64,000 nt of DNA from the NCBI GenBank assembly GCA_018816555.1, contig JAHIVT010000041.1, positions 1-64,000 of the forward strand. Direction: 5' to 3'. Position numbers and translations under genes: made by a program. This stretch comes from Pseudomonadota bacterium. Its GTDB lineage: Bacteria > Desulfobacterota > Desulfobulbia > Desulfobulbales > SURF-16. Positions 12,346 to 31,123 of this stretch are shown in pieces (the stretch's first letter is position 1; each line of letters opens with the position of its first letter). Below the pieces are notes generated by a model that was given only the letters and a program-made list of their open reading frames with translations, was not told the origin of the DNA and did no database searches.

Positions 12346-12513
12346 CCGTCGTGTATTATCTATAGGGAGCGGGCACCCGTGGAGTGGGCTTCGCGTTGAA
12401 TTCTAAGCCTCAGCCTCATCACCTGGCTGAACCCATTTATTTTACAGGTAAATTTGAAATCCATAAAGGCCTTTATCCGACGAGATGCGTCGGTAGATGA
12501 GATAGCCTGAAAC

Positions 12514-13599
12514 TCAGGACGTTTTCTGCCCTGAGATGGCTTTAATAGGAAGCCTGACGGTGAAGGTGGTCCCTTCGTTTACGTTACTTTCAACGGAAAT
12601 TATTCCCTTATGGCTTTGAATCGTTTTCAGTGCAAAGGTGAGTCCAAAGCCGGGGCCATAGGTCTTGGAGGTAAAAAAAGGATCATAGATGTTCTTGAGC
12701 TTATCTTTATCAATACCTTTGCCGGAATCTGCCACCTGGATTTCAAAATAACCATCCGTAACACTGGTGGAGATTTTAAGCTCCCGCTTGTCGCCTACCA
12801 TGGCTTCAATTGAATTTTCTATCAGATTGGAGATGGCCATGGTGATATTTTCCTGGTCTGCATGGATCATGGGGGGATTTTCCATGAACTTCAAGATCAG
12901 TTTAATATGTTTTTTTTCAATCTCATGCTTGTAAATGCTCACGGCATTCATCGTTATCTCATTGAGATCGGATGGCTCGGTGTAGCAAAGCGTAGCCCCT
13001 TTCAGGGCAATAAGCTCGTGCACCATCCTTTCCAGCACCTCAACATTTTTCAGAATGATGTCGATGTATTTGCGATTCTGGCTGCCTTCCGGAAGATTGT
13101 CTCTGAGCCTTCGTCCGAAACCGCCGATGGCCACCAAGGGATTTCTCACCTCGTGGGAAACCTCATCGACAAAATGATCCAGAGCGTCAAATTTTTCCTT
13201 TTCCGCCAGTTTTTTGCTTTCGGTTTTCTGGGACAACAGGGTTCTGACCCGGGCCATGAGCTCCTTGAAATCAAAGGGTTTGGTGATATAATCATCCGCT
13301 CCGATATCAAGACCTTTCACTTTGTCCGGTACCTGGCTTTTGGCGCTGAGCATCAGAATGGGTATCTGCTTGAGTGATTCATCCTGCTTGATTCTCTTAC
13401 ATACCTCGTAGCCGTCTATTTTAGGCATCATGACATCAAGTACGACCAGATCCGGCACATATTCAGAGACCTTTTTCAGTCCCTCTTCACCGTCATAGGC
13501 CTCCGCCGTTTCATATCCCTCGATACGAAATCTTTTCCGCAGAAGTTCAACGGTATCGATGTTGTCGTCAATGATTAAGATTTTAGTCGTATTGGTCAT
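12514..13599 (-). CDS. response regulator-histidine kinase (REC-HisKA-HATPase), cytoplasmic
   Basis: The 361-residue soluble protein begins with a receiver domain (acidic pocket ILIIDDN, phosphoacceptor Asp55 in LVVLDVMMPK, Lys in YITKPFD). It continues with a kinase module: the H-box VSHEVRNPL around His149, the N-box NLIENSIEAM and G-boxes DSGKGID and GPGFGLTFALK. It therefore receives a phosphoryl group at one end and phosphorylates a partner from the other. It is the last gene of the cytochrome/sensor block, 19 bases after the lone receiver. This fits a relay from the large heme-sensor kinase through this protein, but its target is not visible in the window. Confidence 0.93.
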   Translation of the reverse strand: MTNTTKILIIDDNIDTVELLRKRFRIEGYETAEAYDGEEGLKKVSEYVPDLVVLDVMMPKIDGYEVCKRIKQDESLKQIPILMLSAKSQVPDKVKGLDIGADDYITKPFDFKELMARVRTLLSQKTESKKLAEKEKFDALDHFVDEVSHEVRNPLVAIGGFGRRLRDNLPEGSQNRKYIDIILKNVEVLERMVHELIALKGATLCYTEPSDLNEITMNAVSIYKHEIEKKHIKLILKFMENPPMIHADQENITMAISNLIENSIEAMVGDKRELKISTSVTDGYFEIQVADSGKGIDKDKLKNIYDPFFTSKTYGPGFGLTFALKTIQSHKGIISVESNVNEGTTFTVRLPIKAISGQKTS

Positions 13600-13618
13600 G
13601 AAAAAATATAAAAAAAAA

Positions 13619-14011
13619 TTACTGGAGATATCGTTTAATCTGTTCGCTGAATTCTCTGATATTGATCGGTTTGGTTATATACCCTTTACAGCCCACACCC
13701 AATGCCTTTTCACAGTCACCTTTCATGGCATGTGCCGTCAGGGCAATAACCGTTATATCTTTGTAATCCTCCATGTTTTTTAATCTTCTGGTCACCTCGT
13801 ATCCGTCAATTTTCGGCATGGAGATATCCATCAGCACCAGATCGGGTTTTTCGGCCATTATTTTATTGAGTGCATCTTCCCCGTCGTAGGCTTCAAGCAG
13901 ATGGTAGTTCTGTTTACCAAGGATTTTCATGACCAGTTCACGGCTGTCCTGGTTGTCATCAACTACCAGTATTTTCTTTTTATTTCGATTGTCCGGCTGA
14001 TCAGCTTGCAT
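13619..14011 (-). CDS. single-domain response regulator (CheY-like receiver)
   Basis: The 130-residue product has one receiver domain (ILVVDDNQD, phosphoacceptor Asp62 in LVLMDISMPK, Lys in YITKPIN) and no output domain. The start at 14011 is chosen because a TGAGGAAAT ribosome site sits directly before that ATG. A longer reading would need a TTG at 14032. It lies 74 bases after the hybrid kinase and 19 bases before the receiver-kinase. This suggests it shuttles phosphoryl groups within the relay or acts as a phosphate sink. Confidence 0.92.
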   Translation of the reverse strand: MQADQPDNRNKKKILVVDDNQDSRELVMKILGKQNYHLLEAYDGEDALNKIMAEKPDLVLMDISMPKIDGYEVTRRLKNMEDYKDITVIALTAHAMKGDCEKALGVGCKGYITKPINIREFSEQIKRYLQ

Positions 14012-14085
14012 ATATTTCCTCAGAAATTGCAAAAGTTATGATGAACTGCCCCACTGTGAGGGGCAGGCAATAACTTTGCAGGCAT

Positions 14086-17000
14086 TTACATCTTCTTAAT
14101 AGTATTTTTTAAAGTTTCCAACAAGTCATCTTCCGCCAGAATGGCTTTATTGAAGGTGGCCTTGATTCGTCCATTGAGTTCTTTTACTTTTTCCTCGCTC
14201 AGATCACTGTCTGTAATGAGAACGAGGGGAATATTTCTTGCCGATTCATCTGTCTTGATATACTCAATGACGTTTGAGCCGTTCTCATCCGGCTTGATCA
14301 TCAGATTGAGAACAATCAGGTCGGGTTTGCTCTCGTGAATTGCCTGTATTGCTCCCGTGTTATTGGATGCCTTTGTTATCTTATAGCCACCCTCATTGAG
14401 AACGCGGCCCAAGGTATGCAGAGTGCCTGGTTCATTGTCAACGAGCAGGATATTTTTTATGCTTGTCAGTTTTTCCAGATTCTTCAACTTATGCAGCAGT
14501 ATTTTTTTGTCAATCGGTTTGACCATATATTCGGTCGCGCCCAGAGAAAATCCGATTTTCTTTTCATCAACAATGGACAGGATGATAACCGGAATATCCT
14601 GCACAACAGGATCTTTTTTCAATTCCTGCAGGACCTCCCAACCGTCTTTGCCGGGCATCATGATATCAAGGGTAATCGCCGCAGGCTTGATCTCCCTGGC
14701 CTTTTCCACCGCACCCTCACCGGTATAATGGCCCAAGACGTTATAGTCCTCCCCGATATTTTTTCTGATCAGTTCAATAACCTCCGGGTTATCGTCAATA
14801 ACAAGAATTGTTTTTTTGATGCCCCGGTCAACTGCATCACCTTCCAGATCCAAATCATTCATTTTTTGAGCAGCAAATTCGCCGAGCACGAGATTTTCGA
14901 TAATTTCACATGTCTTGCAGTGCTCCGTCTTTTCTGGATATTTAGCCACCTCGATCCCTTTGCAATGAACTCCGCAGATCAGCCAGCAGCGCCTTTCCGA
15001 GTTGCCGTAAGCAGGGCAGCTTGTCTGCCCGCAATGGGCATATTCCCAGCACTTGACCCGTTTGCCGAGATAATAGGGATCCTTAAGAAAGAGATCGACG
15101 GGCTTATCAAAATATTCAGCCAGTTTTTCCGCCATGGCCAGCTCTATGATTGATTCAGTGGACTTTTCCATTACCTTCTTTTGCGCCGGCAGGGTAAAGC
15201 AGAATCTGCTTCCTTTGCCGAAATCGCTATCCACCCAGATAACCCCTTTGTGCAATACCACCAGGCCCCTGGCGATGCTGAGACCAAGTCCGGTACCTTC
15301 ATAAGGTCGACTGGCGGAAACATTGATCTGGGTAAATTTGTCAAAAAGTTTTGCCATATCATCTTTTTTTATGCCGATGCCGCTGTCTTCCACACATATT
15401 TCGATAAACAGGGAGGCTTCACCGGGGGCAATGCCCAGGGTCGAGGGTTTGGCGTGAATGGTGATGCCGCCATGGTCGGTAAATTTGACGGCATTTCCCA
15501 CCAGATTGACAAATATTTGTTTTACTTTATCCTTATCTATGAAGACGGTAGGGAGATCATCGGCGAAATCAAAATGCAGATAGAGACCCTTGGCATCGAG
15601 AACCGGCTGAAAAAAAATGCTGATGGTGTCTCGCATGCTAGTGAAGTCCGTCTCTTGAATGTCGAGTTCTATTTTCCCTGATTCGATTTTAGACATATCA
15701 AGGATGTCGTTGATTAATTGCAGGAGATGCTTGGCGTTATTTTCTACCTTCATCAAGCTTTTTTCCTGTTCTTCGTTTATTTCACCGTCAATCCGGTCCA
15801 GCAGAAGTTGTGTATAACCAATGATGGAATTCATAGGAGTTCTGAGTTCGTGAGACATGTTGGCCAGGAAGGCGGACTTGAGCCTGTCGAGTTCCCGCAG
15901 ATCTCTGATGGCCCGTTCCAGCATCAGGGTTCTTTCCCGCAACATGACGGTCCGATGCGCCACCTCCTGTTCCAGCCCCTTACTCAATGAGGAAATCTTT
16001 TCGTACATTTTTTCCAGATTGCCCAGCATCTGGTTGGTATGACAGGCGATTTTATCCATGACTTCATTGCTGTCATGGTACTCGGCCCGCACCTGCAGAT
16101 TGCCGTCCGAGGCCTGCTTCAGGATGGCGAGCAGATTCTCGGCTCTGAACTCAAGATATTTCCGTTGTTCTTCCTCTCTTTCGGAGATACTCTGGATATA
16201 ACGCAGCCGTTCAGCTTCGAGAACATCACTGATATCCCTGAAAATCTGCACCGCCCCGGTAATATTACCCTGGGCGTCTTTCAGGGCGCTGGCGCTGGCC
16301 ATGACGGGAATAAGAGCTCCTTCCTTGTTTGAGATGATAATTCTGATATCTTCAACCGGTTCACCTGAGACAAGACATTTTTTGATTGGACAGTCGGTGT
16401 CGCAAATATTATCCAGGCAGATATCACTCTTGAATACCTCCCGGCAGGTTAATTTCCCCTCTGTTTCCTGTTTGCTGTATCCGGTTAATCGGGCGCATGA
16501 GCCGTTCATAAAGGTCACAACCAGGTTGGTATCGACGATGACCAGTGGATCGGCTATGGCCTCTTTGAGGCTGTTGGCATATTCAATCTTGTCCTTGATG
16601 CTTTTCACCATGCTGTTGAAGCTGCCGGCCAAGATACCAATGGAGTCCGAGGAATGAACAGGCGCGAATACGGAAAGATCTCCCCTGGCCAGTTCTTCAG
16701 CCTTGGCGGCCAGCTCGGTTATGGGTTTGGTCACCAGTCTGGCCAGCAGGAAATAGATGATGGTAATCAGCAGGCCTATACCGATGAGGCTTGCTATAAT
16801 GGTATGATTCCGTAGGGTGGCGATGGCCAGATAGGTGGCATCAGTGGATTGTCTCGTCAACAGTCCACCGAGAACCTTGCGTGAGTCGCCGTGGCAGTGA
16901 TGGCATTCCTCGTTATTATAAATGCTGTGGATGGTAACCAGATAATTGACGCCGTCCTTCTCCTCTTCAAAATAGCTTATCCGTGGGGGAACGGCGGTTT

Positions 17001-17382
17001 CAAGCAGGGTTCTCAGGGCAACCAGGGTCGCCCGGTTGCCGGTGAAGGTCGATACATCGGCCCCGATGCGGTCTTTATTGGTGGCAAAAACAATGCGCTG
17101 GTTAAAATCGCATATGACGATTTCCGTGTCCTCCAGTTCATCGCCGATATCAAGAAGCTGTTTTTCAACAGAGGGGCTGTCTCCCAACGACATCGTATGT
17201 TTGATGCCCGCATAGGCCAGTGATTTTATGTCTTGGCTATAAGTGGTCATCCTTTCCCTGATATGTTCCCGTTGATTGGTGATACTGAAATAGATGACAC
17301 CGCCCATGACAATGGTGACGCCGATGGTGAGCAGGGTTTCCAGATGAAGGATTTTTTTGATAATTCCATTCAGGATGATCAT
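14086..17382 (-). CDS. large hybrid histidine kinase with periplasmic c-type-heme motif, Cys-rich PAS, two-CW cluster and two receivers
   Basis: The 1098-residue membrane sensor is laid out as follows. TM1 (about 14-36) precedes a periplasmic sensor domain with a c-heme motif CHHCH at 160-164. TM2 (195-215) leads to HAMP (216-270). The PAS domain (about 270-385) contains five cysteines between 313 and 336. The kinase follows with H-box SHELRTP (His511), N-box NLVGNAVKF and G-boxes DSGIGI and GTGLGLS. A cysteine-rich segment at 778-825 resembles the two-CW type (KCWEYAHCG…RRCW). Two receivers close the protein, the first with Asp906 (LDIMMPGKDG). In the second the phosphoacceptor position is Asn1026 (VLNLMIKP), so it is probably a pseudo-receiver. 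The start at 17382 follows a GGCGGAGG site inside the end of the tetraheme gene, one base after its stop. Redox sensing by heme is inferred. Confidence 0.93.
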   Translation of the reverse strand: MIILNGIIKKILHLETLLTIGVTIVMGGVIYFSITNQREHIRERMTTYSQDIKSLAYAGIKHTMSLGDSPSVEKQLLDIGDELEDTEIVICDFNQRIVFATNKDRIGADVSTFTGNRATLVALRTLLETAVPPRISYFEEEKDGVNYLVTIHSIYNNEECHHCHGDSRKVLGGLLTRQSTDATYLAIATLRNHTIIASLIGIGLLITIIYFLLARLVTKPITELAAKAEELARGDLSVFAPVHSSDSIGILAGSFNSMVKSIKDKIEYANSLKEAIADPLVIVDTNLVVTFMNGSCARLTGYSKQETEGKLTCREVFKSDICLDNICDTDCPIKKCLVSGEPVEDIRIIISNKEGALIPVMASASALKDAQGNITGAVQIFRDISDVLEAERLRYIQSISEREEEQRKYLEFRAENLLAILKQASDGNLQVRAEYHDSNEVMDKIACHTNQMLGNLEKMYEKISSLSKGLEQEVAHRTVMLRERTLMLERAIRDLRELDRLKSAFLANMSHELRTPMNSIIGYTQLLLDRIDGEINEEQEKSLMKVENNAKHLLQLINDILDMSKIESGKIELDIQETDFTSMRDTISIFFQPVLDAKGLYLHFDFADDLPTVFIDKDKVKQIFVNLVGNAVKFTDHGGITIHAKPSTLGIAPGEASLFIEICVEDSGIGIKKDDMAKLFDKFTQINVSASRPYEGTGLGLSIARGLVVLHKGVIWVDSDFGKGSRFCFTLPAQKKVMEKSTESIIELAMAEKLAEYFDKPVDLFLKDPYYLGKRVKCWEYAHCGQTSCPAYGNSERRCWLICGVHCKGIEVAKYPEKTEHCKTCEIIENLVLGEFAAQKMNDLDLEGDAVDRGIKKTILVIDDNPEVIELIRKNIGEDYNVLGHYTGEGAVEKAREIKPAAITLDIMMPGKDGWEVLQELKKDPVVQDIPVIILSIVDEKKIGFSLGATEYMVKPIDKKILLHKLKNLEKLTSIKNILLVDNEPGTLHTLGRVLNEGGYKITKASNNTGAIQAIHESKPDLIVLNLMIKPDENGSNVIEYIKTDESARNIPLVLITDSDLSEEKVKELNGRIKATFNKAILAEDDLLETLKNTIKKM

Positions 17383-17383
17383 C

Positions 17384-17887
17384 TCAATGTCCTCCGCCAT
17401 GAATGAGTGGCCTGAATTTGAAGGCCTGAATCATCTCGCTGGTGTGGCACTGATCGCAGGTCTGTATGGTCGGATGGCCAATGATCGATTCAGGCTTTGC
17501 GTCTTCTATGTGAATCGATCCCGGGCCGTGGCAAACCTCACAGCCGGCATTTTTCAAAAGAGGAGTTTTTTCAACGCTGATAAAGCCGCCCGGTTTCCCA
17601 TAGCCTGTAGTGTGACAGGTATAGCATTTCTTTAAATCTTGTTCGTTCAGACCTTTCTGCAGTCTTTCAATGCTTCTATAGGAGTTGCTTTTTTTTGTAT
17701 AGATGGAGAAGTTGGCATATTCCTTCTCGTGGCAGGGCTGGCAGGAGAGGGAACCAACATAAACTGGGAGGGCAGGGAAAGGCTCTTTTGCTGCGAGGCA
17801 TGGCGATACACACACCATGCAGAACATAGATATGATCAGTAATTGTAATGTCGTTTTATGCAGATTAAGTGCGGAGGGGGATTTCAT
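17384..17887 (-). CDS. secreted tetraheme c-type cytochrome
   Basis: The 167-residue product has a signal peptide (hydrophobic stretch about 13-32 ending CLAA). Four CXXCH heme-attachment motifs follow: CQPCH, CYTCH, CEVCH and CDQCH. The pattern GCEVCHGPGSIH and the overall spacing resemble cytochrome c-554-type tetraheme proteins. Heme attachment in the periplasm is family knowledge; the electron partner is inferred. It sits between the 15-heme gene (19 bases upstream) and the heme-sensor kinase, whose start is one base after this stop and whose ribosome site lies inside this gene. Its expression is thus tied tightly to the sensor, and it could be an electron donor or signal partner for it. 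Confidence 0.92.
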   Translation of the reverse strand: MKSPSALNLHKTTLQLLIISMFCMVCVSPCLAAKEPFPALPVYVGSLSCQPCHEKEYANFSIYTKKSNSYRSIERLQKGLNEQDLKKCYTCHTTGYGKPGGFISVEKTPLLKNAGCEVCHGPGSIHIEDAKPESIIGHPTIQTCDQCHTSEMIQAFKFRPLIHGGGH

Positions 17888-17906
17888 GCCCGTTCTCCAT
17901 GCAATC

Positions 17907-19520
17907 TTATCCTTTATCCCAATGGCAGCCGGTACACTGGGTTATCCCAGGCTTTAACCTCAATTTGTTTTTGCGTTGCGAACCTTCGGCCGAAGCAGGG
18001 TATTTGATAACTCCCAGATCGTGTGGATTATGGCAGGTAGCGCAGACCACCTTGCCATGATACAGGGGTAACTCGACCCCGATCCTTTGTACAGAGGTTT
18101 CAAGGGCTTTCAAAATTTTTGCTGAAGGTGTTACCAGGTGACGGCCTCCTGCGGGATGGTTTTCACTGAAGCCCGGATGGCATCCGATACAGTATTCATT
18201 GGGGTCATCAACTATAAATATAACATTTTTCGGCCCGAAAAGGTAGATATCCGGAAGGGATGCATGACATAAAAGGCATGTTTCTTTTCTGATGTGACCA
18301 TGTTCATCAACCTGCAGGTGAGGATTTAAACGACGATAGGTCTCCTGACGATGACAGAGAAAACAGAATTCGTTGCGCGACAACCCGGTTCTGCGCAGGA
18401 AGTTGGGATTTTCCTTGCCCACAGAGTCGATATGCCGGGCGGTTTCCTGCAGGGATGACTGGTGGCAGGTCTCACAGGAGAGTTTCCCGTTCTGCAGAGG
18501 CATGTCCGGAGGTATCTTCACCTGTTTTGAGGGGATAATGCCCACCGGATGAATATCAGCCCTGGCAAACTCTGACTTGTGGCAGCGGTTGCAGAGCTCG
18601 TTGAGATCGCCACTGCCGAGAAGACTCGGATTTCCTTTGGATGGAGCGCCCTTGTGGCAGGAAATGCACATCAAGTTTTTCCAGTGGGGATTGATATTTC
18701 TGGAAACTGCTGCCAGCTTGAGGTATTCATTGGTGATCAGATGGTTTTCTTCCACTTTGCCGTGATGGATATGGCAGCTTAAACAGTACATCTGGCCCTG
18801 CTGCAGGTTGCTTGCGGGATCAAGCAATTCCTGGACAAGGGGATCCGGCAAGGGGTCGAGATCCTTGTAGTGGTTTTTCCTGAGCGACCAGTGGCAGAAG
18901 AAACAGACGGCGTCAACTTCATCCTTGGCCATTTTCCCCTTATTCTTTCTTTTCTCCGGGGTGGCGATATGACAGAAAACGCATGTTGTGGTGTCTGTGG
19001 TATGCGGCGAAATGCCGGCAAAATGTTCCTTATGGCAGATGGAGCACAAGCTGGTGCGGATAGTCTGGTGTGAGGTATTGTTTCCTCTGAGAAGATACGG
19101 GGTAAACTTATCCTGGTGTATGTAATGACAGGTCAGGCAGACAATCTTTCCCTGATATATGCCATTGCCCAGGGGCAGGTTGAAATTATCCAGTCCGGCG
19201 AACTGATTGATCGGCTCTATCCCCAGCGGGTGAAGATTAGCTCCGGCATGGCACATCTCGCAGAGACTGATACTGTCAGCACTGATCAGGCCTTCTGCCG
19301 TTTTGCCGTCTTTATCCTGTAAATGGCATTTGTTGCAGGCCATGCCATGGGGGTTGCCTATGGTCTCAAGAGGAGGAGAGGGGATTGTCAAGCCGTCATT
19401 TGTTCTGTGCAGCCTTCTGTCGGGTGAAATAGTTACAGATTCAGCAGAAATTGCCGTTGGAAGACTTGCGATGAGTGTTGCTGCCAGAAAAAAGAGCGAT
19501 GCGATGCAGAAACGGCCCAT
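17907..19520 (-). CDS. secreted 15-heme c-type cytochrome
   Basis: The 537-residue product has a cleavable signal (ends PTAISA) and 15 CXXCH motifs by direct count, from CNKCH to CTGCH. There is roughly one heme per 36 residues and many extra His residues for bis-His ligation. Pairs such as CEMCH…HPLG…CLTCHYIH and CHPGF…HPAGG…CATCHNPHD match the doubled-CXXCH repeat type found in large respiratory cytochromes. There is no membrane segment beyond the signal, so it is expected to be periplasmic or exported. It starts one base after the 22-heme gene, so the two are surely co-transcribed and probably act as one electron wire. Confidence 0.94.
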   Translation of the reverse strand: MGRFCIASLFFLAATLIASLPTAISAESVTISPDRRLHRTNDGLTIPSPPLETIGNPHGMACNKCHLQDKDGKTAEGLISADSISLCEMCHAGANLHPLGIEPINQFAGLDNFNLPLGNGIYQGKIVCLTCHYIHQDKFTPYLLRGNNTSHQTIRTSLCSICHKEHFAGISPHTTDTTTCVFCHIATPEKRKNKGKMAKDEVDAVCFFCHWSLRKNHYKDLDPLPDPLVQELLDPASNLQQGQMYCLSCHIHHGKVEENHLITNEYLKLAAVSRNINPHWKNLMCISCHKGAPSKGNPSLLGSGDLNELCNRCHKSEFARADIHPVGIIPSKQVKIPPDMPLQNGKLSCETCHQSSLQETARHIDSVGKENPNFLRRTGLSRNEFCFLCHRQETYRRLNPHLQVDEHGHIRKETCLLCHASLPDIYLFGPKNVIFIVDDPNEYCIGCHPGFSENHPAGGRHLVTPSAKILKALETSVQRIGVELPLYHGKVVCATCHNPHDLGVIKYPASAEGSQRKNKLRLKPGITQCTGCHWDKG

Positions 19521-19521
19521 T

Positions 19522-22263
19522 TTATTTTACCCCGTTGTTTTCTTTATCCTCGCCGGCAGGTTGTCTTTGTGTATCAGACTCAACTTGGTCGGCGGTGGGC
19601 ATCGAAATCCCTAAAATACTCTTTTTCTCATTGGCATTATGGTAGAATCTATACAGTAAAAGGGTTTTAATTCCATGGCAAGCATAACACAATTCATTTC
19701 TTGCACCTTTTCTGAGAAAACTGTTAACAACAGTGCCCTCAATGTTTTTCCCTGACCCGGCAGTGTCTTCATTTGCGTCCCAGATATGCGGATCATGACA
19801 GGTGGAACAGGTTATTTCCCCGGAAACCGCCTTTTTACCTTCCTTGGTATATAAAGGAATGGGATCAGGCGACGGGCCGATGGACAGCAGGATATTCCGG
19901 TAAGACTTGTGATAGCCGAAATAGAATTGTTTCGGATGTATGCCGGAGGAAATGACCTTGCCTTTACCCGCACCGTTTTTGGCGTGGCAGCCGTTACAGG
20001 CTTTCTCGATGAAGTCCTGTCCGGTATCATCCAGCGTGTAATTCCACAGCAGGGTTTTCTCAGGAGCATTGTGAACGGCATGGCATGGTGAGCAGACTGA
20101 CTCTTCCTTGGCCATTTTTCCGCTTTTATTCAGCGATGTGGGAGCTGTTACCCGCATGTCATGATCGGTTCCGGTGACAAAGCTTTTGCGCAGGTGGCAT
20201 TTGGCGCATAAAGTCGGTTTTTCCAGATTGGCGCTTCTGAGGAAACTGTTGTCAGCAGTGCCCTCAACGTTGCTGCCCTTCCCCTTCTTGCTGAGTTGGG
20301 AATTCCATCTGTGGGGATCATGGCAGGTATGACACTCCATAACTGAGGTGCCGTCAGACAGTTTCCGCAGGGGCAGTGACAGGTTGTAGGTGTCTTCTAT
20401 TTTGACGTTCACCGGATGGGTGTTCTGTCCCAAGGTCTTTTTATCCGCCGGTCCTTTCTTGACATGGCAATTCAGGCAGAGAGAGGAAGGGGATGTGGGT
20501 TTTGTGTCGAATTTACGCGCCCAGAGGTACGGACCGCTGGCCTGATGCGGCACATGACAGGGTGAACAGACACCTGATTGACCGGCGGTCTGTTTAGCGA
20601 TATTGTTCTCTTTGGGCGCAGTGACGGTGAGGTCGTGATCAGTGCCTTCCACATAATACTGCTCCACATGGCATGAGGCGCAGAGAGAACTGTCCGTGCC
20701 GGAACGCTTCCGCAGAAAACTGGTGAAGGGTGTCCCTTCATCATTAATGCCTTTGCCCTTCTTGCTGCTCTGTGAGTCCCACCTGTGGGGATTATGGCAG
20801 GTATGACACTCCATCACTTCATTTCCATCCGTTTTGGTATAAAGCGGCAGTGTTTTCGGATCCTTCAGCTGATCGGCTTTTTGCATGGCAACGTTGACCG
20901 GGTGGGTGAACCTGCCCACCGTCTTTTTGGCTGCGATGCCTTTGTCGTTATGACAGGTGAGACAGAGTTTGGACGGTGAAGACAATGAAGCGGGATCTTT
21001 TACTTTTCGTGCCCAGAGATACGGACCGGTGGCCTTATGCGGGATATGGCAGGCAGTACAGACACCGGTCTGTTTTATGGTCTGCTTGAGGACATTGATC
21101 TCGTCTTTTGCCGTAATGCTGAGATCGTGATCGGTTTTGTCAACCATATACTCGCCCTTATGGCAGGTGGCGCAAAGGGAATCACGCTGGCCGGCTAGGG
21201 CCTTGGTTCCCGGTTCGTGCTGGTGGACCTTATGGCAGGTGTAACAGTAGACAGTATTGTCGGTCCCGCCGTCAAGTTTCACATGGCTTGCCGGATCAAG
21301 CTTGTATTTGACATAAAGGGGATGGTTGCTTTTCTGCCAGTCGGCAGCGGAGGATCGGTCGGCCTTGTCTGGATGACAAAGCTGGCACAGTGATTCTTTA
21401 TTTTTTACCAGGGCTTTTGTACCCTTTGGAAATTGATGCACCTTGTGACAGGAAAGACATTCGAGGTTGTTATTCGGGCCTAACTGAATCTTTACCCCCC
21501 CGACATTGGGATTTTGTTTAAACTCCACGAGCAGGGGATGGTTGACCTGCTTATTCACCGGGGCATTGGGAGCATCGTATTCACCCGGGTGGCAGAGCGT
21601 GCAGAGGGTTGATTGTTTTTTAACCTCGAAAAGGAGATTTCTTTCCACGCTGCCATGGGCGGTATGGCAGCTTTCACAGATAACAAAATTGGTATCTGTG
21701 GCGGATGGTACAGCACCCACAGCATATAACTCTTTCGGGATAGGCCGCTTGCCCTCATGGGTAGGATGGTTAGTCTTGTCCTGGACCGCCTGATCGACAT
21801 GGCACATCTCGCACATTATGGAATCTTTATTGGAGATACGCAGAAAAATGGTGCGTTCTATACTGGTATCCGTGGTAACGGAGTGCGCGGAGTGACAGGT
21901 GGCGCAGACAACTTTACCATCTTGAGAAAGCGGAAACATTTTCGGAATTTTGACTTTGTCCGAAGGGAGCATATCGGTTTTATGCCTGTCCAGTATCCAT
22001 ACCTTCTTCCGGGAGTCATCAGTTGACCCGTCATGGCAGCTGAAACAGATCATTTCTTCGCCGGCGACATCTTCTTTCTCATATCCCACCAAGGCAGTTC
22101 CATGTCCTTCGAGGAATTGATCAATCCATCTGAAGTGACAGATGGCACATTCACGGGCAGAATTCTGGGTCAGATTTCCGGCTGCCTGTACATTTGGTGC
22201 AGGCGGCAGAAAAAGTGTAACCGCAAGGATCAGGATGAATGAAAAAGGTGATAACCGGCGCAT
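19522..22263 (-). CDS. secreted 22-heme c-type cytochrome with repeated tetraheme modules
   Basis: The 913-residue product has a signal peptide (about 1-27, ending NVQA) and 22 CXXCH motifs by direct count, starting CAICH at 39 and ending CYACH at 859. Residues 215-350 show two diheme repeats of about 72 residues (LCTLCHPGEY…CLSCHKVHQ and LCQLCHPDKA…CYTCHKVHQ). Residues 362-857 consist of three tetraheme modules of about 160 residues with recurring TDHD…A, GPYLWARK, HPVNV and HTCHxPHRW. It has no membrane span after the signal. The likely role is long-range electron transfer across the periplasm or outside the cell. The acidic, heme-free tail after residue 870 is odd. Confidence 0.95.
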   Translation of the reverse strand: MRRLSPFSFILILAVTLFLPPAPNVQAAGNLTQNSARECAICHFRWIDQFLEGHGTALVGYEKEDVAGEEMICFSCHDGSTDDSRKKVWILDRHKTDMLPSDKVKIPKMFPLSQDGKVVCATCHSAHSVTTDTSIERTIFLRISNKDSIMCEMCHVDQAVQDKTNHPTHEGKRPIPKELYAVGAVPSATDTNFVICESCHTAHGSVERNLLFEVKKQSTLCTLCHPGEYDAPNAPVNKQVNHPLLVEFKQNPNVGGVKIQLGPNNNLECLSCHKVHQFPKGTKALVKNKESLCQLCHPDKADRSSAADWQKSNHPLYVKYKLDPASHVKLDGGTDNTVYCYTCHKVHQHEPGTKALAGQRDSLCATCHKGEYMVDKTDHDLSITAKDEINVLKQTIKQTGVCTACHIPHKATGPYLWARKVKDPASLSSPSKLCLTCHNDKGIAAKKTVGRFTHPVNVAMQKADQLKDPKTLPLYTKTDGNEVMECHTCHNPHRWDSQSSKKGKGINDEGTPFTSFLRKRSGTDSSLCASCHVEQYYVEGTDHDLTVTAPKENNIAKQTAGQSGVCSPCHVPHQASGPYLWARKFDTKPTSPSSLCLNCHVKKGPADKKTLGQNTHPVNVKIEDTYNLSLPLRKLSDGTSVMECHTCHDPHRWNSQLSKKGKGSNVEGTADNSFLRSANLEKPTLCAKCHLRKSFVTGTDHDMRVTAPTSLNKSGKMAKEESVCSPCHAVHNAPEKTLLWNYTLDDTGQDFIEKACNGCHAKNGAGKGKVISSGIHPKQFYFGYHKSYRNILLSIGPSPDPIPLYTKEGKKAVSGEITCSTCHDPHIWDANEDTAGSGKNIEGTVVNSFLRKGARNELCYACHGIKTLLLYRFYHNANEKKSILGISMPTADQVESDTQRQPAGEDKENNGVK
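19693..21180 (-). repeat. three tandem ~160-codon tetraheme modules inside the 22-heme gene
   Basis: The modules cover residues 362-525, 526-683 and 684-857 (20689-21180, 20215-20688 and 19693-20214). The heme motifs recur with spacings of 158-164 residues (Cys364, 528 and 686; Cys402, 566 and 724; Cys434, 596 and 756; Cys486 and 644, with Cys819 slightly further out). Modules one and two are the most alike; the third has diverged. This points to growth of the protein by internal duplication. Confidence 0.85.
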
Positions 22264-22268: not shown

Positions 22269-23318
22269 TTACTGACCCTGTCTTTCCAGAATCAGCACCC
22301 TGTTGTTGAACATTTCAACGACATAAAGACGGTTACCGGAAATAGCCATTCCCACCGGTGTCTTGAATTTGGTAATCTTTCCGTTACTGTCTCCGACGAC
22401 ACCAATAAGCCCTCCTTCCCGTTTGAAAACCTGAACAACTCCTAAATAACTATCTGAGATGAACACCTCGTTTTTTTCGTTTACCACCACACCCTTTGGT
22501 CTGAAAAATTGACCGGGTTCAATACCCCATTCACCTATGAAACGGGCAAACTTACCATTTGATTCAAGAACCTGTACCCGGGTATTGATGGCCTCTACAA
22601 TATAGATCCTGCCCAACCGGTCAATATCAATCAGAAAGGGGAAGCGGAATTCACCAGGATTGCGGCCCATTGTCCCTGTGGACCAGAGCAGTTTGCCGGA
22701 ACGGTTCATTGAAACAACCCGGTGATTATCGTTGTCCACTACAATATACGTATTGTCAGGTCCGAAATTGACATCAGTAGGATCGCTCGGCTTGCCGTTA
22801 ACAGAGGAGGGGACATCAATGTAATGAGGAGTTTTCTCTTCCGCGGCAAAGAGGGCAAGTCGGTGATTTCCCGAATCCGCCACAACCACATCACCCCCAG
22901 GTGAAACATCGATACCAAGGGGCTGTTTGAGAATTCCCGCACCTCCCAGGGTAAATATTTGTTCTCCCTTGGGGGAATATACTCTGACCGTGTCTGCTGT
23001 ACCGTCTAAAATGAAAATCCTGCCGCTCTGGTCAACGGCAACATCACTGGGAAGTTTCATTGAGCCTGAGATCGACAGGACAGGTTGGAATTTAACAATA
23101 TTTGGTGCGCCATCTTGAGCAAAGATGATGGCCGGGAAAAAAACCGATATGATAAGGAGGGGAAATAATAACCAGCACCTTTGGTTGTTTCTGCACTGTC
23201 TTCCTTCACTGCCCTTATTGCCAGCTTCAGCTGATGTACGGGTTAACTGATCCAGATCAGCTGAGCTGGCAATGGGGCAATGCATATCGACAGAATGTTC
23301 TCGCAGGCAAAGGTGCAT
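22269..23318 (-). CDS. NHL-repeat beta-propeller protein, exported
   Basis: The product has about 349 residues. After an unusually long polar leader comes a hydrophobic signal or anchor (WLLFPLLIISVFFPAIIF). A run of six or so NHL-type blades follows, each with patterns such as GxIxIxDxxxxxVxVxxxxG (DQSGRIFILDGTADTVRVY; LGRIYIVEAINTRVQVL; KNEVFISDSYLGVVQVF). NHL propellers are binding scaffolds and have no heme. Similar proteins recur in multiheme-cytochrome clusters, where a structural or docking role is suspected but unproven. The start is uncertain. The longest reading begins with TTG at 23330, and ATG 23318 has a short-spaced AGGA. The gene lies five bases before the 22-heme gene and about 20 after the cytochrome b-c fusion. 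Confidence 0.85.
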   Translation of the reverse strand: MHLCLREHSVDMHCPIASSADLDQLTRTSAEAGNKGSEGRQCRNNQRCWLLFPLLIISVFFPAIIFAQDGAPNIVKFQPVLSISGSMKLPSDVAVDQSGRIFILDGTADTVRVYSPKGEQIFTLGGAGILKQPLGIDVSPGGDVVVADSGNHRLALFAAEEKTPHYIDVPSSVNGKPSDPTDVNFGPDNTYIVVDNDNHRVVSMNRSGKLLWSTGTMGRNPGEFRFPFLIDIDRLGRIYIVEAINTRVQVLESNGKFARFIGEWGIEPGQFFRPKGVVVNEKNEVFISDSYLGVVQVFKREGGLIGVVGDSNGKITKFKTPVGMAISGNRLYVVEMFNNRVLILERQGQ

Positions 23319-23338
23319 GGTCCTAGTCAAATGTGGTC

Positions 23339-24931
23339 TTAGTCAGTGGAACGGTTCTCCATTTTCAGTTCGTTCATTTTCTGCTTTCTCATCAGATCGG
23401 GATCGAACATGGTCGGGAGATAGAACTGCATGTATCTATTGATCATATCAGCAACCTCTGTCCGATAGAGACTCTCGGCACGTTTTGGTGGATAGCCTAC
23501 CCGTGCAAGATCTATATAAGGTTGTTTGCTGTTGTGGCATTCCGTACACTGAACCGGTTTTTTTGCCATGTTCTTATGGATAATTACTTTTGCCTTACCC
23601 TGTTCCTCAGGAGTCAGAATATCTTTCTGAGCAATGTAGGATTTAATAAAGTTGGGATCTTCAGCCTCATCCATGCGGCGAATTTCATTGCCGTTGTTGC
23701 TGTCTGATACAAGTACCGGGATGAGTCTTGCTCCGTAAACGCCGTTACTGCCCTCAATTTTATCGATCTTCTCATCCGTCATGTTGTCAAACCAGACGTA
23801 GTTGAATTTGCCGGAGAAATTTTCCTCACGGTCATGGCACACCTCACAGGCCATGAAATAACTATGCATGTTAAGGAAAGAACGGATATCAGGAGCCTTG
23901 CTGTGCGGTAAGGTGCCATGACAGGTCACACAGAATTGCGGGTTCGCTAGCTTTAAATTCACGGTATCATCTACGTTGTGGAAATGCCTGGTATACTTCG
24001 CCGTATCCCCACTATGGATTAATCTATCAAAGCCGGTGCTTGGTGTTTTGGCCTTGGCTGAATAGGTGGGTGGAAAATAAAGAAGCTTGCCCAGTAAAAA
24101 CATTACGCCCATAAAGAAAAGAATGGAACAATAGGTCATGAATTCGACGAACACTTGTTTGACGGATTTCGGTCCGTGGTGACCATGGTGATCGTGTTCA
24201 TCGACCGGAGCGAGTTTCCCTTCTGCAACCAGGCGGTTGTACATGGCGCCATGTTCGATTTTCAGATGGTGGTTAGACATCTTGCCGTCTATCCAAACCC
24301 TGCTCATGGGGAACTGGCCAGGTTTAAAGTGCACCTGATAAAAGTGCCATACGATGATGGCCATGGTGGCCAGGCAGGCCTCCATGCCGTGAATCATAAT
24401 CGAGAGATCAAGAACGAATTTGCTCCAGTATACTTCCGACCAGAGGAAAATACCGGTCACGGATATGATGATGGTACCCGCTACCAGAGCCAGATATTCA
24501 GCCTTTTCCCTGTAATCGAAACGTTCGAATTCAGGCGGTTCCGGACGCTGACCGAAATAGTATGCCATATTTCCGATGATATCCGTCACGTCTTTTAATG
24601 TGGGGATCATGGCGAATATGAAAGACCGCCCGGCCTTGGTGAAAATACAGTAACGGACATGATCGAGTCCGCCGATTATCATGATTACCCCGGCTATCCT
24701 GTGAACAAGTCCACGATATTCGAATATGGTAGTTCCATATGATCCCAACTTGAGTATCCATGCCTCAGGCATCTTGAGCATGTATCCGGTTATTACCAGG
24801 ATAAAGAAGGTCACAAAGGTTATAAGGTGCTGAAGGCGCTCGGGGCCGTTCAGCCTTACAATTTCCTTGGGGAGGTTGTCGTTGTTATGCATCATCTCAC
24901 CATCTTTGCCAATTATTTTATCGGAGTCCAT
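23339..24931 (-). CDS. cytochrome b (FdnI/HydC-like) fused to a triheme c-type domain
   Basis: The 530-residue product begins with a four-to-five-helix cytochrome b module (about 20-215). This has conserved His residues in RLQHLITF, GLVHRIAG, LDHVRY, IHGMEA and VWHFYQVHF, typical of the diheme b subunit of formate dehydrogenase and NiFe hydrogenase. A further helix (about 260-280) precedes a periplasmic C-terminal part with three heme motifs, CVTCH, CEVCH and CTECH. The same b-plus-c fusion idea is seen in the Geobacter inner-membrane protein CbcL, which takes electrons from menaquinol. I infer the same entry-point role here, feeding the multiheme proteins encoded downstream. An alternative ATG lies 12 codons on. 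Confidence 0.92.
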   Translation of the reverse strand: MDSDKIIGKDGEMMHNNDNLPKEIVRLNGPERLQHLITFVTFFILVITGYMLKMPEAWILKLGSYGTTIFEYRGLVHRIAGVIMIIGGLDHVRYCIFTKAGRSFIFAMIPTLKDVTDIIGNMAYYFGQRPEPPEFERFDYREKAEYLALVAGTIIISVTGIFLWSEVYWSKFVLDLSIMIHGMEACLATMAIIVWHFYQVHFKPGQFPMSRVWIDGKMSNHHLKIEHGAMYNRLVAEGKLAPVDEHDHHGHHGPKSVKQVFVEFMTYCSILFFMGVMFLLGKLLYFPPTYSAKAKTPSTGFDRLIHSGDTAKYTRHFHNVDDTVNLKLANPQFCVTCHGTLPHSKAPDIRSFLNMHSYFMACEVCHDREENFSGKFNYVWFDNMTDEKIDKIEGSNGVYGARLIPVLVSDSNNGNEIRRMDEAEDPNFIKSYIAQKDILTPEEQGKAKVIIHKNMAKKPVQCTECHNSKQPYIDLARVGYPPKRAESLYRTEVADMINRYMQFYLPTMFDPDLMRKQKMNELKMENRSTD

Positions 24932-24964: not shown

Positions 24965-26164
24965 TTAATGAAGCTTACCTTTGCTTTTGTTGATAAGTAT
25001 TCTTATAAAATCAAGCATCTGGTGTGCCATCATTCCTCCAATCACCACGGTGATCAAAAGAGTATATACATATTTTACTATGATGTAGACTTTGCGTTGG
25101 AAAATCTGCTGCTCGTCAAGCTTGGTGATATCCACATCCTCAGACGTGACGGCGCTGAGATCACGGAAGCGCCTTTCCTGTTTCAGACTATCCATTTCGT
25201 TTAAAGTAGCTTCACCCTCGACATAGGCGCTAACCTTTTTCTCAAATCCGCTGCCGGTAGGATGAATTTTACCTGTGGCAAACTGCTCGGTGGCTTTGGG
25301 ATGACATACCTGTGTACCGTTGAGATTGGAACAGGTCGCCTGCAGATTCTGCTTATGAACCGCTGAACCGGGATTGGAGCCCGTTTTCATGGAATGAACC
25401 GTGAAACCGACAGGGGCATGACAGCTGAGGCAATCAGGCATATTCGGGTCGCCATACAAAACACCTTTCCAGTGGAAGGTATCTTTATAGTTGGACGTGG
25501 CAGTAAGCCCATGTCGGGCCATCTTCTTTTCGTCCTTATGGCAATCGAGACAGAGTTTAACGGTCTGTACAGCTGTTTTTGACCGGTGCATCCGGTGGGC
25601 GAAATGCTGGTAGAAGCGATTGGTCCACTCCTTGTTCTCGTGGCAGCCCAGGCAGCGCCGCAGGGCATCTTGTGAAATGCCGGCCTGCATTGTAGTGAGG
25701 TCGCTGACAGGTTGGTAGACAGCATTCACATGGCAGTCGGTGCACTGGGGTAGATCCTCGGTGCATTTTTTGGTCATCTCGGGGGTGTACAGACCATGGA
25801 TGCTTGTATTGAATTCAGCATAAATGCCGCCATGGGAGAATTCTTTGTCGGTGGATGGTTCCTTGAGATGGCACTTGGTGGAGCAATCCACTTTCTTTGC
25901 ATCGGTGTGGGGGATGACATCAAGATTCAGATGGCAGTTCCTGCACAGGACCTTACCATGAACGGAATTGATGTATATGTCCTCGCTGACGTAAAACAGG
26001 CGCGATTTGCCTGTTTGTGTGTCAATCCTGCCCAACCCGGGGTACTTGTGACATACGCTACATGCTTCTTCATCCGCCGCGTAAATGAAGGATGGAGCAT
26101 TCAGCGTTGAAACCATCCAAATCATTAGAAAGAGGCAGACACATCTGCTTAAATGATTTTTCAT
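24965..26164 (-). CDS. membrane-anchored multiheme cytochrome c (six CXXCH plus CX3CH and CX8CH)
   Basis: The 399-residue product starts at ATG 26164, directly behind a GGGAGGG ribosome site; a longer reading from 26203 lacks one. It has a signal peptide (ends FIYAAD). Six standard heme motifs are seen: CSVCH, CRNCH, CTDCH, CLGCH, CLDCH and CLSCH. Two non-standard motifs occur at positions where hemes would be expected, CSTKCH (CX3CH) and CSNLNGTQVCH (CX8CH). A single C-terminal transmembrane helix (about 355-377) ends in a short basic cytoplasmic tail. It is the first gene of the nine-gene block, 33 bases before the cytochrome b-c fusion. It is probably the periplasmic partner of that quinol oxidoreductase. 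Eight hemes are inferred, six are certain by motif. Confidence 0.9.
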   Translation of the reverse strand: MKNHLSRCVCLFLMIWMVSTLNAPSFIYAADEEACSVCHKYPGLGRIDTQTGKSRLFYVSEDIYINSVHGKVLCRNCHLNLDVIPHTDAKKVDCSTKCHLKEPSTDKEFSHGGIYAEFNTSIHGLYTPEMTKKCTEDLPQCTDCHVNAVYQPVSDLTTMQAGISQDALRRCLGCHENKEWTNRFYQHFAHRMHRSKTAVQTVKLCLDCHKDEKKMARHGLTATSNYKDTFHWKGVLYGDPNMPDCLSCHAPVGFTVHSMKTGSNPGSAVHKQNLQATCSNLNGTQVCHPKATEQFATGKIHPTGSGFEKKVSAYVEGEATLNEMDSLKQERRFRDLSAVTSEDVDITKLDEQQIFQRKVYIIVKYVYTLLITVVIGGMMAHQMLDFIRILINKSKGKLH

Positions 26165-26882
26165 TATCCCTCCCTCATCATGTGTTTCTGTTTGTTCAAA
26201 CACCGCTCAATGCATAAAAAAAGTGAATTTCAGGATCACCTCATTAAATGGGGCGGACCCTGGTGTGATTCACTATTCAAAATGAATTTTGCGGTATTTT
26301 TAGAAATTATGAGTTGTCTGTTTTAATAAAAAAAAATCGCCCCAAAAAAAAATAAATTCTCTCTTCTTTCATTCAGAATGAAGAACTTAACTCTCTTTAT
26401 ACTACATGCTCTGCTGAAAATTGAAAGCAGTAATTAACCAAGATTTTTATTATTTTAAAAAAATAGTAATAAAATTGGCTATTCATTTTATAGCAAAAAT
26501 TATAACAGATTCTGTAAAAAAATGAATGCTCAATTTTTGCTCGCGCCAGTATAACTACTTAGCAATAAATTTGCGGTGTGGTAAATTGTCGCAGAAAGCA
26601 GAATCTGATTGTTTTTTGGCGGCAAGAGAGGGTGGTTGAATTGTTTTTTTACCTTGCCTTACATTAGCTTTTTTTTAATTTTTTCACTATCTCAATGAGT
26701 TAAGTTTTTTGTGGTACAGCCAATGATGGGAAGAAAGATGAGGAGTGATCAGTGTCGCGGATTTGCAAATAATTATATTGCTTTTGTTTTGATAACTAAT
26801 TGATTGGGTTGAACATTTGCCGGAAGAGAATTTCTGATCAAAAAATGGAGCAAAGGTGACGAGTTGCAGCAGGCCTGTATCA
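26165..26882 (-). promoter_or_regulatory. AT-rich upstream region of the cytochrome operon
   Basis: These 718 bases are gene-free and strongly AT-rich, with phased A/T runs (for example two A9 tracts at about 26328-26352). They contain the end of the ATPase transcript and must contain the cytochrome-operon promoter. I found no clear -35/-10 or sigma-54 (GG-N10-GC) element. The imperfect inverted repeat GTGAATCAC…GTGAT…ATTCAC (about 26228-26270, read on the minus strand) lies some 70-110 bases before the first start. It is the best candidate for a regulator site. Confidence 0.4.
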
Positions 26883-27791
26883 TTATTTCTGATCAATTGT
26901 TTTGAGTTCGGAGTGGACGGTTGCTTTGAATCCGGCAACCAGGTCCAGTAATTCCGAGGTGATGGTAGACTGCCGTTTTATCCTGTATGCACCCCGTAGT
27001 TCCTCAACATGTTCTTCAATATTTTTTTCCGCATTCTGCAGGGATCTCAGGCGACTTGCCTGCTCACTGGCCAGGGATTCGGCCTGACTGCGGAAAAGAG
27101 TGACGAACAGATACTGGCGGATTAATCCGGAAAAAAGCTGGTCGGCCGGCACCCGGAAACTGGGGAGTGATCTGCCCGGCCATTGCTTTTTCCGCAGAGA
27201 GCGCAGATGGTCATTATCAATTGGAAGTAAAACCTGGTGATCGGGACTGGCCGAAGTTAATTTTTCATATCTGTTAAGGAAGATATCAACCTGGGCTATT
27301 TTGTGTTCTTTAAGCCAGCCTTCCACGCTGAGAAGCACTTGATAGATGCTGGCGTTAATGCCGTTGACGGAACCGGGAACCCAGAACTGTTTGTCTATGA
27401 TAAAACCTCCCGCCTCGAGCCGGGCCGCAATCCGTGCGCCGATGACGATCAGTTTGAGGGATGAGAAATCAGTGACTTTCATACTGATAAGCTGCTGTCT
27501 GACAAAATCGGCCAGGCGTTCATTGAATCTGCCGCATAAACCCTGATCGGAGCCGAAGATGATCACCCCTCTGGTGAATTGGTCCGATACGGCGGCATGC
27601 CGCGGCAATGCCGTTTCCTTGAGTACCGTCTGCAGTCCAAGTTCGATGACTTCGACAAAGGTGTCCAGCGAGGCAAGTGCCCGTTCATACTGACGGATAT
27701 TGACGGCAGACAGGGTCTTCATGCTTTTGACGATACCCTGCACCTTGGTGGTGGTTGTTATTCTTTTGTCCAGGTCCTGTAAGGTCTCCAT
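26883..27791 (-). CDS. atpG: N-type ATPase gamma subunit
   Basis: The gamma subunit is the central rotor shaft that couples ion flow in the membrane ring to catalysis in alpha3beta3. The 302-residue product has the long N-terminal helix (TLQDLDKRITTTTKVQGIVKSMKTLSAVNI) and the C-terminal helix (AEKNIEEHVEELRGAYRIKRQSTITSELLDLVAGF, shortened here in meaning: residues about 255-295) that form the coiled-coil shaft. It is divergent from housekeeping gamma, as expected for the alternate F1F0 class. It is the last gene of the operon, six bases after alpha. No epsilon or delta follows, which distinguishes it from a standard atp operon. Confidence 0.93.
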   Translation of the reverse strand: METLQDLDKRITTTTKVQGIVKSMKTLSAVNIRQYERALASLDTFVEVIELGLQTVLKETALPRHAAVSDQFTRGVIIFGSDQGLCGRFNERLADFVRQQLISMKVTDFSSLKLIVIGARIAARLEAGGFIIDKQFWVPGSVNGINASIYQVLLSVEGWLKEHKIAQVDIFLNRYEKLTSASPDHQVLLPIDNDHLRSLRKKQWPGRSLPSFRVPADQLFSGLIRQYLFVTLFRSQAESLASEQASRLRSLQNAEKNIEEHVEELRGAYRIKRQSTITSELLDLVAGFKATVHSELKTIDQK

Positions 27792-27797
27792 GTTATT

Positions 27798-29318
27798 CTA
27801 TTCCATGGTGCCGGCAATGGGGGCAACCGCCTGTCTGCAGGAGGCGAGCAGGGCGGCTTTTTCATCTTCGGACAGTTTATCTCCCTGGCGGATTTTTTGG
27901 CAGATGTGGGGGAGGTCCCTGAATATTTTTTCCGTGATTTTTTGCTCGGCCGCCTTGATTTCCTTGACCTCAATTGCGTCAAGCAGGCCTTCGGTAAGGG
28001 CAAGCATGACTGCCACCTGTTCATAGTCCTTCAAGGGGGAGTATCTGCTCTGCCGCAGGACCTCCCTTACTCGTTTGCCACGTTCCAGGGCTTTCTTGGT
28101 ATTATCATCAAGTCTTGTGGCAAAACGGGCAAAGGTTTCAAGCTCCTCGAACTGGGCATAGGACAGACGCATCTGTCCGACAAGATCCCTGTAGGCAACT
28201 TTCTGCGCCTTGCCGCCAACCCTGGACACGGATTTTCCCACATCAACCGCGGGCAGCATGCCCTTGGAAAAGAGATCAGGTGAAAGATAGATCTGACCGT
28301 CCGTGATGGAGATGATATTGGTCGGAATATAGGCGGAGAGGTTCTGCGCCTCGGTTTCCACAATGGGCAGAGCAGTCAGGCTGCCACCGCCCAGGTCCTG
28401 GCGTAGATGGGTTGCTCTTTCCAGCAGCCGGGAATGGATATAAAAGATATCGCCGGGATAGGCCTCTCTTCCCGGGGATCTCTCCAGCAGCAGAGATATC
28501 TCACGATAAGAACGGGCGTGCCGGGTAAGATCATCATAAACGATGAGGACATTTCTGCCCCTGGACATGAAATATTCCCCGATGCTGGTGGCGGCGTAGG
28601 GCGTGATGTACTGCAGCCCCGGGGCATCCTGACCGCTTGAGACAACCACCACCGTATAAGCCAGAGCGCCATGCTCTTCAAGTTCATGAAGCACCTTGGC
28701 CACTGCCGATTCCCTTTGGCCGATGGCGGCATAGATGCAGATAACCTCCTTGTCCTTCTGGTTGACAATGGCGTCAAGGGCGATGGATGTTTTGCCGGTC
28801 TGGCGGTCACCGAGAATGAGCTCCCGTTGCCCCTTGCCGATTGGAATCAGGGCGTCAATAACCTTGATGCCCGTTTCAAGGGGACTTGCCACCGGCAGAC
28901 GTTCCATAATCGCCGGGGCCGGGTGTTCAAGCGGACTTCGTTCAAGATGCGGGAGAGTTCCTTTCTCATCAAGGGGTTTGCCGGTGGCGTCGATCACCCT
29001 GCCGAGCAATTCCTCTCCAACCATGACATCGGCCACCCGGCCGAGACGTTTTACCTCATGACCGGCCTTGAGTGAATAGCCTGTGCTCAGCAGAATGATA
29101 CCGACCTTCGCCGGGTCGAGACTGGCAACAATACCGAGAGTGCCGTCCTCAGCCTGCACCAGTTCCTCGGAGGTAACGCCGTTTAAGCCGCTGGCATAGG
29201 CAACCGGCCCGGAGACCGAGATAATCCGGCCCACATCCTCGGCTTTTAGTGAAAATTCATTGGAGTCCAGGGTGCGTTCAAGGGCGTTACGGGTTTTTTC
29301 AAGTGATGCTTTCAGCAT
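27798..29318 (-). CDS. atpA: N-type ATPase alpha subunit
   Basis: This is the non-catalytic nucleotide-binding subunit of the F1 head. The 506-residue product carries the P-loop GDRQTGKTS near residue 170. It also has the alpha-type signatures [30 protein letters not shown] and [17 protein letters not shown] (in place of the usual SVSRVGSAAQ). The gene is nine bases after the b-delta gene and six before gamma. The position of alpha and gamma at the far end, away from beta and epsilon, is diagnostic of the N-ATPase arrangement. Confidence 0.95.
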
Positions 29319-29327
29319 AATGTCAGA

Positions 29328-30086: not shown

Positions 30087-30089
30087 TGC

Positions 30090-31119: not shown

Positions 31120-31123
31120 GGCG

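Follow-up and report, generated by a model that had tools for sequence, protein, structure and literature searches.

Gene D (19522..22263, minus strand) lies in a stretch of 64,000 nucleotides, here called the window, which corresponds to positions 1-64,000 of the forward strand of contig JAHIVT010000041.1 (assembly GCA_018816555.1). It encodes a modular cytochrome of 913 amino acids (aa) with 22 heme-binding motifs (CXXCH), whose tetraheme modules are homologous over their whole length to the subunit of the OmcE nanowire. On the basis of the internal repeats, the conserved histidine positions, the homology of the module to OmcE, the length variation among relatives and the gene neighbourhood, we hold, with somewhat more confidence than doubt, that D is a single-chain, capped and covalent OmcE-type heme wire, encoded beside a split quinone oxidoreductase, and that its length is set by the number of its units. 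The new point is the correspondence of each D module with an OmcE-type protomer, so that D is probably a covalent, capped nanowire; no description of OmcE-type modules fused in one chain was found in the open-licence literature searched. Published work is cited by PMC accession, and the statements taken from it refer to parts of the papers concerned.

Domain organisation of the cytochrome

The 22 CXXCH motifs counted on the open reading frame (ORF) agree with the number given in an earlier note on this DNA, and besides them the protein contains zero further cysteines. Judged by eye, a Sec-type signal peptide occupies approximately residues 1-27 and no lipobox is seen. Pfam comparisons yielded generic matches (Paired_CXXCH_1, Cytochrome_C7 and related cytochrome families) and nothing more specific, and in the NCBIfam scan the doubled CXXCH domain alone was above the cut-off.

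The mature protein begins with an N-terminal cap (N-cap; residues 28-226, 21586..22182, on the minus strand like all parts of the gene), which contains hemes 1-6 and a CHDG motif; its heme spacing (34, 47, 31, 45 and 25) is kept in relatives, and its first four hemes were aligned as A8. It is followed by two diheme units, D1 (residues 227-298, hemes 7-8, 21370..21585) and D2 (residues 299-369, hemes 9-10, 21157..21369), delimited by repeat alignment and heme spacing. Then come three tetraheme modules cut in the OmcE register, from HDL to the last CXXCH: M1 (residues 370-533, hemes 11-14, 20665..21156), M2 (residues 534-691, hemes 15-18, 20191..20664) and M3 (residues 692-864, hemes 19-22, 19672..20190). 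The C-terminal cap (C-cap; residues 865-880, 19624..19671) is defined by the conserved position of His875, 12 residues past the last proximal histidine.

The region 19693-21180 (residues 362-857) had been described in the earlier note as three duplicated tetraheme modules, and sequence alignment confirms this as well as the heme positions do. Compared with shuffles in which the CXXCH motifs were held in place, M1 and M2 are identical at 92/157 positions (z = 37), M2 and M3 at 59/168 (z = 22) and D1 and D2 at 33/74 (z = 19); the DNA of M1 and M2 is 66% identical. The interval of 158-164 residues at which the hemes were said to recur is found in seven of the nine +4-heme offsets from heme 10 onward (164, 164, 162, 158, 158, 158 and 160) and does not hold for the final two (175 and 173); M3 has a longer insert than the other modules. 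These seven heme pairs compare with a mean of 1.8 after gap shuffling, and at least seven were obtained in a fraction of 0.00055 of 20,000 shuffles. The separate diheme repeat of 72 residues is also real (offsets of 73, 72, 71 and 71), with an offset of 62 where it meets the first tetraheme module. On the other hand, the heme-free acidic tail proposed as a docking segment has to be discarded, given its near-balanced charge (7 D/E and 6 K/R in residues 870-913; 6 D/E versus 3 K/R in the final 24 residues) and its lack of conservation, since the sequence past the capping histidine is conserved only in the genus of the window. The conserved element of this end is a fixed histidine, which probably caps the last heme.

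Homology of the tetraheme modules to OmcE

The module profile (A4, 167 columns) starts at the HDL motif and stops at the next CXXCH. Against the PDB its first match is 7tfs (1.7e-11), which is OmcE (PMC12954529), followed by 9yuq (4.8e-8) and OmcS (9.3e-7); 7tfs is also the best match of a two-module profile (3.7e-9) and of a single module of the window taken alone (0.0025). A second alignment (A5) was built from 15 stand-alone OmcE-like tetraheme proteins and matches 7tfs (2.8e-38) and 9yuq (2.1e-37) in the PDB, with nothing else at 0.001. When A4 and A5 were compared with hhalign, they aligned end to end (144/167 columns, probability 99.4, E 1.2e-21, score 141). Control comparisons with the module gave 5.9e-11 for the decaheme family and 8.3e-13 for the family of the neighbouring 15-heme cytochrome E, and a further run with five other multiheme families gave scores of 41, 107.5, 94, 69 and 56 against the module profile. 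In shuffles with the CXXCH motifs fixed, the maximum among 2000 was 22.0 bits versus 43.6 for OmcE, and 20.7 versus 32.0 for 9yuq; this control is slightly favourable because the OmcE pieces were taken from printed alignments. The match of the N-cap with A5 is limited to two hemes (44 columns, 3.7e-11).

The D modules share with OmcE (7TFS) the order HDL, CxxCHxPH, LW, LCxSCH, HP, LPL, ECxxCHxxH, FL(R) and LCxxCH, which includes the four CXXCH motifs and the four distal histidines in sequence. All eight histidines of the tetraheme unit are invariant columns, in the same order, in A4 and A5, and in a set of 150 modules of the family, chosen for their CXXCH spacing, retention of these distal histidines is 150, 150, 149 and 149. 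The difference is found in the way in which the units are connected: OmcE polymerises from single tetraheme subunits, each ending just past its last CXXCH, whereas in D the modules are joined covalently and accompanied by an N-cap, diheme units and a histidine cap at +12. D would work in the manner of OmcE but is not classed as an OmcE-type filament protein because it lacks this free protomer. A stand-alone OmcE-like tetraheme protein is encoded in the window's own genome (C18:15627-16463), and matches to such proteins at 1e-8, some of them partial, occur in 27/96 genomes of the order.

Related to this family, PDB entry 9yuq is a 218-aa 'putative multiheme cytochrome c' with 16 chains, whose match to the OmcE-like family is as strong as that of OmcE, and it is possibly another OmcE-type filament. 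Besides, four 11-heme proteins have an OmcE-like N-terminal part (HNL, then a CH..PH heme and W): L111 (7891-9606), L018 (18445-20151), L085 (13756-15513) and L032 (9866-12331). They are possible further OmcE fusions.

Histidine register, module junctions and the probable C-terminal cap

In the OmcE filament, which has a rise of 34 angstrom, the adjacent subunit supplies a histidine ligand to one interfacial heme (PMC12954529, PMC9473688). HD(L/F/M) opens the stand-alone OmcE-like proteins, and in 17/20 ORFs two residues follow the last CXXCH, as against 19 in the remaining 3/20. Within the D family, the HDL histidine is located 11 residues past the preceding CXXCH histidine in 137/150 modules (the first histidine being counted), and at a different distance, mostly 3, in the other 13/150. 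This register suggests that each junction between modules recreates, within one chain, the interface between OmcE subunits, the HDL histidine taking the part of the interfacial one. At the C-terminal end a histidine is present at exactly +12 in 51/51 complete C-ends, leaving aside the distant 'Geo-type' group described below, and His875 itself is found in 18/19 rows of alignment A1; this histidine would cap the chain where the next module is absent.

Against 22 hemes, 21 histidines outside the CXXCH motifs are preserved in every row of the family, or in nearly every one. One more, H349, is present in each of the 12 rows of identical architecture, but in 12/16 overall. Heme 1 may therefore lack a fixed distal ligand, or it may receive one from a partner.

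Length variation among relatives

Genes related to D were found at 21 loci in named genome records (two of them, L031 and L032, distant), in 6/22 genomes of the window's family and in 34/395 sampled genomes of the phylum, a count that includes the distant group of 25-34 hemes. The carriers are Desulfurivibrio sp. SURF_16 (86% identical), Desulfosediminicola flagellatus, other Desulfobacterota, Nitrospira and Thermodesulfovibrionia. The distant group bears here the working, non-taxonomic label 'Geo-type' (L055, L056, L058, L061, L062, L091, L093 and L096); its 25-34-heme proteins have tighter heme spacing and carry the histidine at +12 after the last heme in 8/8 cases, and the neighbours A, B and C of gene D are found in 0/5 of its larger loci. 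The 27-heme GSU2210, or the Cbc5 cluster, was considered as the identity of the locus on account of its size and its neighbours, and was rejected; the Geo-type proteins, which may be the group of GSU2210, are only distant kin of D without these neighbours.

The complete genes outside the Geo-type group encode 12, 15, 16, 18, 20, 21, 22, 23, 31, 34, 38 or 49 hemes, and two incomplete genes, open at the 5' end of their contigs, encode 32 and 48. These numbers can be described by the rule 6 + 2d + 4t, where six hemes belong to the N-cap, d is the number of diheme units and t the number of tetraheme units; the rule was fitted after the spacings were known and is thus descriptive. After the removal of sequences contained in a longer one, and with incomplete ORFs and the eight Geo-type rows excluded, it holds in 40/46 proteins, the six misfits being L064, L066, L092, L020, L028 and L049. 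The combination (d,t) = (2,3) occurs 14 times, (1,2) eight times, (1,3) and (0,3) six times each and (1,1) twice, and (2,2), (0,4), (4,5) and (2,7) are represented by one protein each. In L020 (8101-10791) the first CXXCH has been lost (CAIWH), which leaves 21 hemes.

The gain of whole modules can be followed in the DNA. L038 (22 hemes, on a 2.3-Mb contig) has exactly one module more than its clear orthologue L025 (18 hemes); M1 and M2 of L038 are identical at 434/469 bases (92.5%), and M1 of L025 is 67-68% identical to either. Draft assemblies can collapse near-identical repeats, so the heme count of L025 may be an underestimate. In L065 (38 hemes) a block made up of two tetraheme units and a diheme unit is duplicated, with 82% identity over 1226 bases. 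When the 119 modules of 40 representative proteins were compared, the nearest module belonged to the same protein in 17 cases and to another protein in 102, which indicates that the duplications are mostly old and some of them recent. The stepwise lengthening that the earlier note had suggested is therefore well supported, because the module number varies strongly among relatives (12 to 49 hemes) and recent tandem duplications are seen in the DNA.

Gene neighbourhood

D belongs to a tight run of six genes on the same strand (minus). Upstream of it are A (24965..26203), with six CXXCH motifs and a hydrophobic segment near the C-terminal end; B (23339..24931), which combines a cytochrome b561-type membrane domain (Pfam PF01292, 2.6e-13) with three CXXCH motifs; and C (22269..23330), a six-bladed NHL propeller protein (Pfam NHL, 4.3e-23). 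The 15-heme cytochrome E (17907..19520) starts directly after D, and it is followed by F (17384..17887), a tetraheme c554-like cytochrome (Pfam PF13435, 1.4e-18). Gene A also contains atypical CX3CH (residue 107) and CX8CH (residue 291) motifs that may bind further hemes.

The neighbours were surveyed around 53 D genes outside the Geo-type group, in the larger loci (one duplicate locus was dropped and contig-end cases were kept), by phmmer with the window proteins (at least 50 bits, within 6 kb, same strand). Relatives of A were found near D in 37/53 cases, of B in 43/53, of C in 46/53 (36 of them within 400 bp) and of E in 38/53. The set A-B-C-D occurs twice in tandem in the Nitrospirota records L026 and L030, and in some relatives A and B are fused into proteins of 889-921 aa with nine CXXCH motifs, whose b561 match is weak (below the Pfam cut-off). 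A and B together likewise present nine CXXCH motifs (6 + 3) with a cytochrome b membrane domain, so that in architecture they resemble CbcL and CbcBA, where a cytochrome b domain is combined with a multiheme domain. The Cbc5 cluster differs in its partners, CbcC, CbcD and CbcE, and the parts of its descriptions used here mention no NHL gene (PMC11434368, PMC10989804).

In genomes of family f37, a decaheme that belongs to both the GSU2203 (4.3e-108) and the DmsE (2.8e-80) families, each match being over the cut-off, is encoded near the A-B-C-D set, together with a GSU2204-like, barrel-like protein (3.2e-93, below the cut-off of the model). The window's genome contains, on another contig, a DmsE-family decaheme (2.0e-75) near an MtrB/PioB match (1.9e-6, over the cut-off), and dsrA is also present. 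Such a neighbourhood is consistent with electrons passing, in either direction, between quinone pool and cell exterior. In Desulfurivibrio alkaliphilus, sulfide oxidation is coupled to iron oxide reduction, for which multiheme cytochromes have been proposed (PMC12545173).

Proposed function and alternative explanations

According to the model proposed here, each tetraheme module would amount to a complete protomer of an OmcE-type nanowire, joined head to tail to the following one, and the HDL histidine of the next module in the same chain, at +11, would supply the ligand that in OmcE is given by the next subunit. Heme 22 would be capped by the built-in histidine at +12, so that the wire would be closed and not an open polymer. 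Its length would be the count of tetraheme and diheme units in the gene, altered by tandem duplication. Electrons would enter or leave through A and B, seen as a split quinone:cytochrome oxidoreductase (a cytochrome b plus at least nine c hemes), and would pass along D toward E, F and a conduit in the outer membrane, as happens in extracellular electron transfer. As a first guess D is placed across the periplasm. From the homology of the modules to OmcE a linear heme chain is likely; if 8.5 angstrom per heme are assumed as in OmcE, 22 hemes would extend about 19 nm, and 12-49 hemes about 10 to 42 nm.

In polymeric cytochrome nanowires the gene does not fix the length. The members of the D family differ mainly in module number and would thus be wires of defined length, in which conduction could be measured directly as a function of length; if this is true, wire length is a genetic variable that changes by gain or loss of whole modules. 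The family also points to a way in which filament subunits and giant multiheme cytochromes could be linked in evolution, and it offers a concrete candidate for envelope-crossing electron transfer in sulfur-cycling Desulfobacterota and in Nitrospirota. A very high heme number per chain is likewise known from the 86-heme cytochrome of Desulfuromonas acetexigens (PMC12133095) and from other giant cytochromes, the heme number being the only feature compared. To the wider proposal of a length-encoded single-chain nanowire, comprising fused OmcE-type subunits, intramolecular ligation, the histidine cap, evolution by whole modules and the link to giant cytochromes, we give an even chance.

Several results weigh against this model. 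The multiheme background shared with the module profile is high, the 15-heme E family scoring 94 to 107.5. The full-length AlphaFold2 model of the mature protein (19 alignment rows) failed, with a predicted local distance difference test score (pLDDT) of 44 and a predicted template modelling score (pTM) of 0.31, and a structural search with it gave nothing at Z 2 or more. The two-module model (41 rows, window M1-M2 first) was of moderate quality (pLDDT 72.9, pTM 0.66), and it had no Foldseek match at E below 2 and no VIA-align match at Z 2 or more. The missing matches are not counted against an OmcE fold because proteins of this kind have little secondary structure (PMC9473688). As regards the conduit, the window genes A-F have no Pfam match to an outer-membrane porin, barrel-like proteins adjoin D in some relatives only, and the candidate of the window's own genome is not on the contig of D. 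Finally, a periplasm is too small for the longest members if they are straight, as 31-49 fully extended hemes would exceed it, and a surface location or a folded chain is therefore possible for them.

The background of multiheme similarity could also mean that D is a generic paired-CXXCH cytochrome whose modules fold as a compact globule. Every multiheme family scores somewhat with the module profile and the predicted structure has no match to OmcE, but the OmcE match is the highest, runs end to end with eight histidines in order and lies far above the shuffle control, for which reasons this explanation is quite improbable. It is also unlikely that D is a periplasmic electron reservoir (capacitor), in which the modules would set storage and not reach, like the dodecaheme GSU1996 (PDB 3OV0). 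In this protein, a monomer, small heme domains are repeated along a chain that is linear in the crystal, and a capacitor role has been proposed for it (PMC10138318); D shares with it the presence of several small heme domains in one chain, and 31-49 hemes suit storage better than a fixed gap. However, each of the four domains of GSU1996 is triheme and includes one His-Met heme, whereas the modules of D are tetraheme and keep four distal histidines, and D shows only a general Pfam Cytochrome_C7 match. Its modules resemble OmcE, no GSU1996 chain appears among the best 25 to 30 PDB chains listed for the D profiles, and the association of D with a quinone-oxidoreductase-like pair and an NHL protein suggests a specific path.

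The remaining alternative concerns the location, since D could be exported and be itself an extracellular wire, instead of spanning the periplasm. OmcE filaments are found on the cell surface (PMC12954529, PMC9473688), D has the Sec-type signal peptide without lipobox mentioned above (judged by eye), and the range of lengths is too wide for a fixed gap. Nevertheless, polymer growth through the C-terminal end of D is unlikely because of the conserved histidine cap, in which it differs from the stand-alone OmcE-like proteins, and no export gene was identified in the operon; an extracellular wire is doubtful.

Additional observations

Two further clusters with multiheme cytochromes are found in the window's own genome. 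L108 (approximately 8707-19730) and L110 (approximately 2793-12681) contain a 26-heme and a 16-heme cytochrome, and also an NHL-like protein and a large possible barrel protein, recognised by eye.

Upstream of the operon, ATP synthase-like genes (alpha, gamma, a, c and b-type, by eye) occupy 26883-32146 on the minus strand, and their order looks like that of an N-type (sodium) ATPase. Adjoining F, the minus-strand region 14086-17400 encodes a hybrid sensor histidine kinase (HAMP, PAS, HisKA and receiver) with a CHHCH motif at residue 166, which possibly marks a heme-sensing domain. Beyond this kinase there are two response-regulator-like ORFs (12514-14032).

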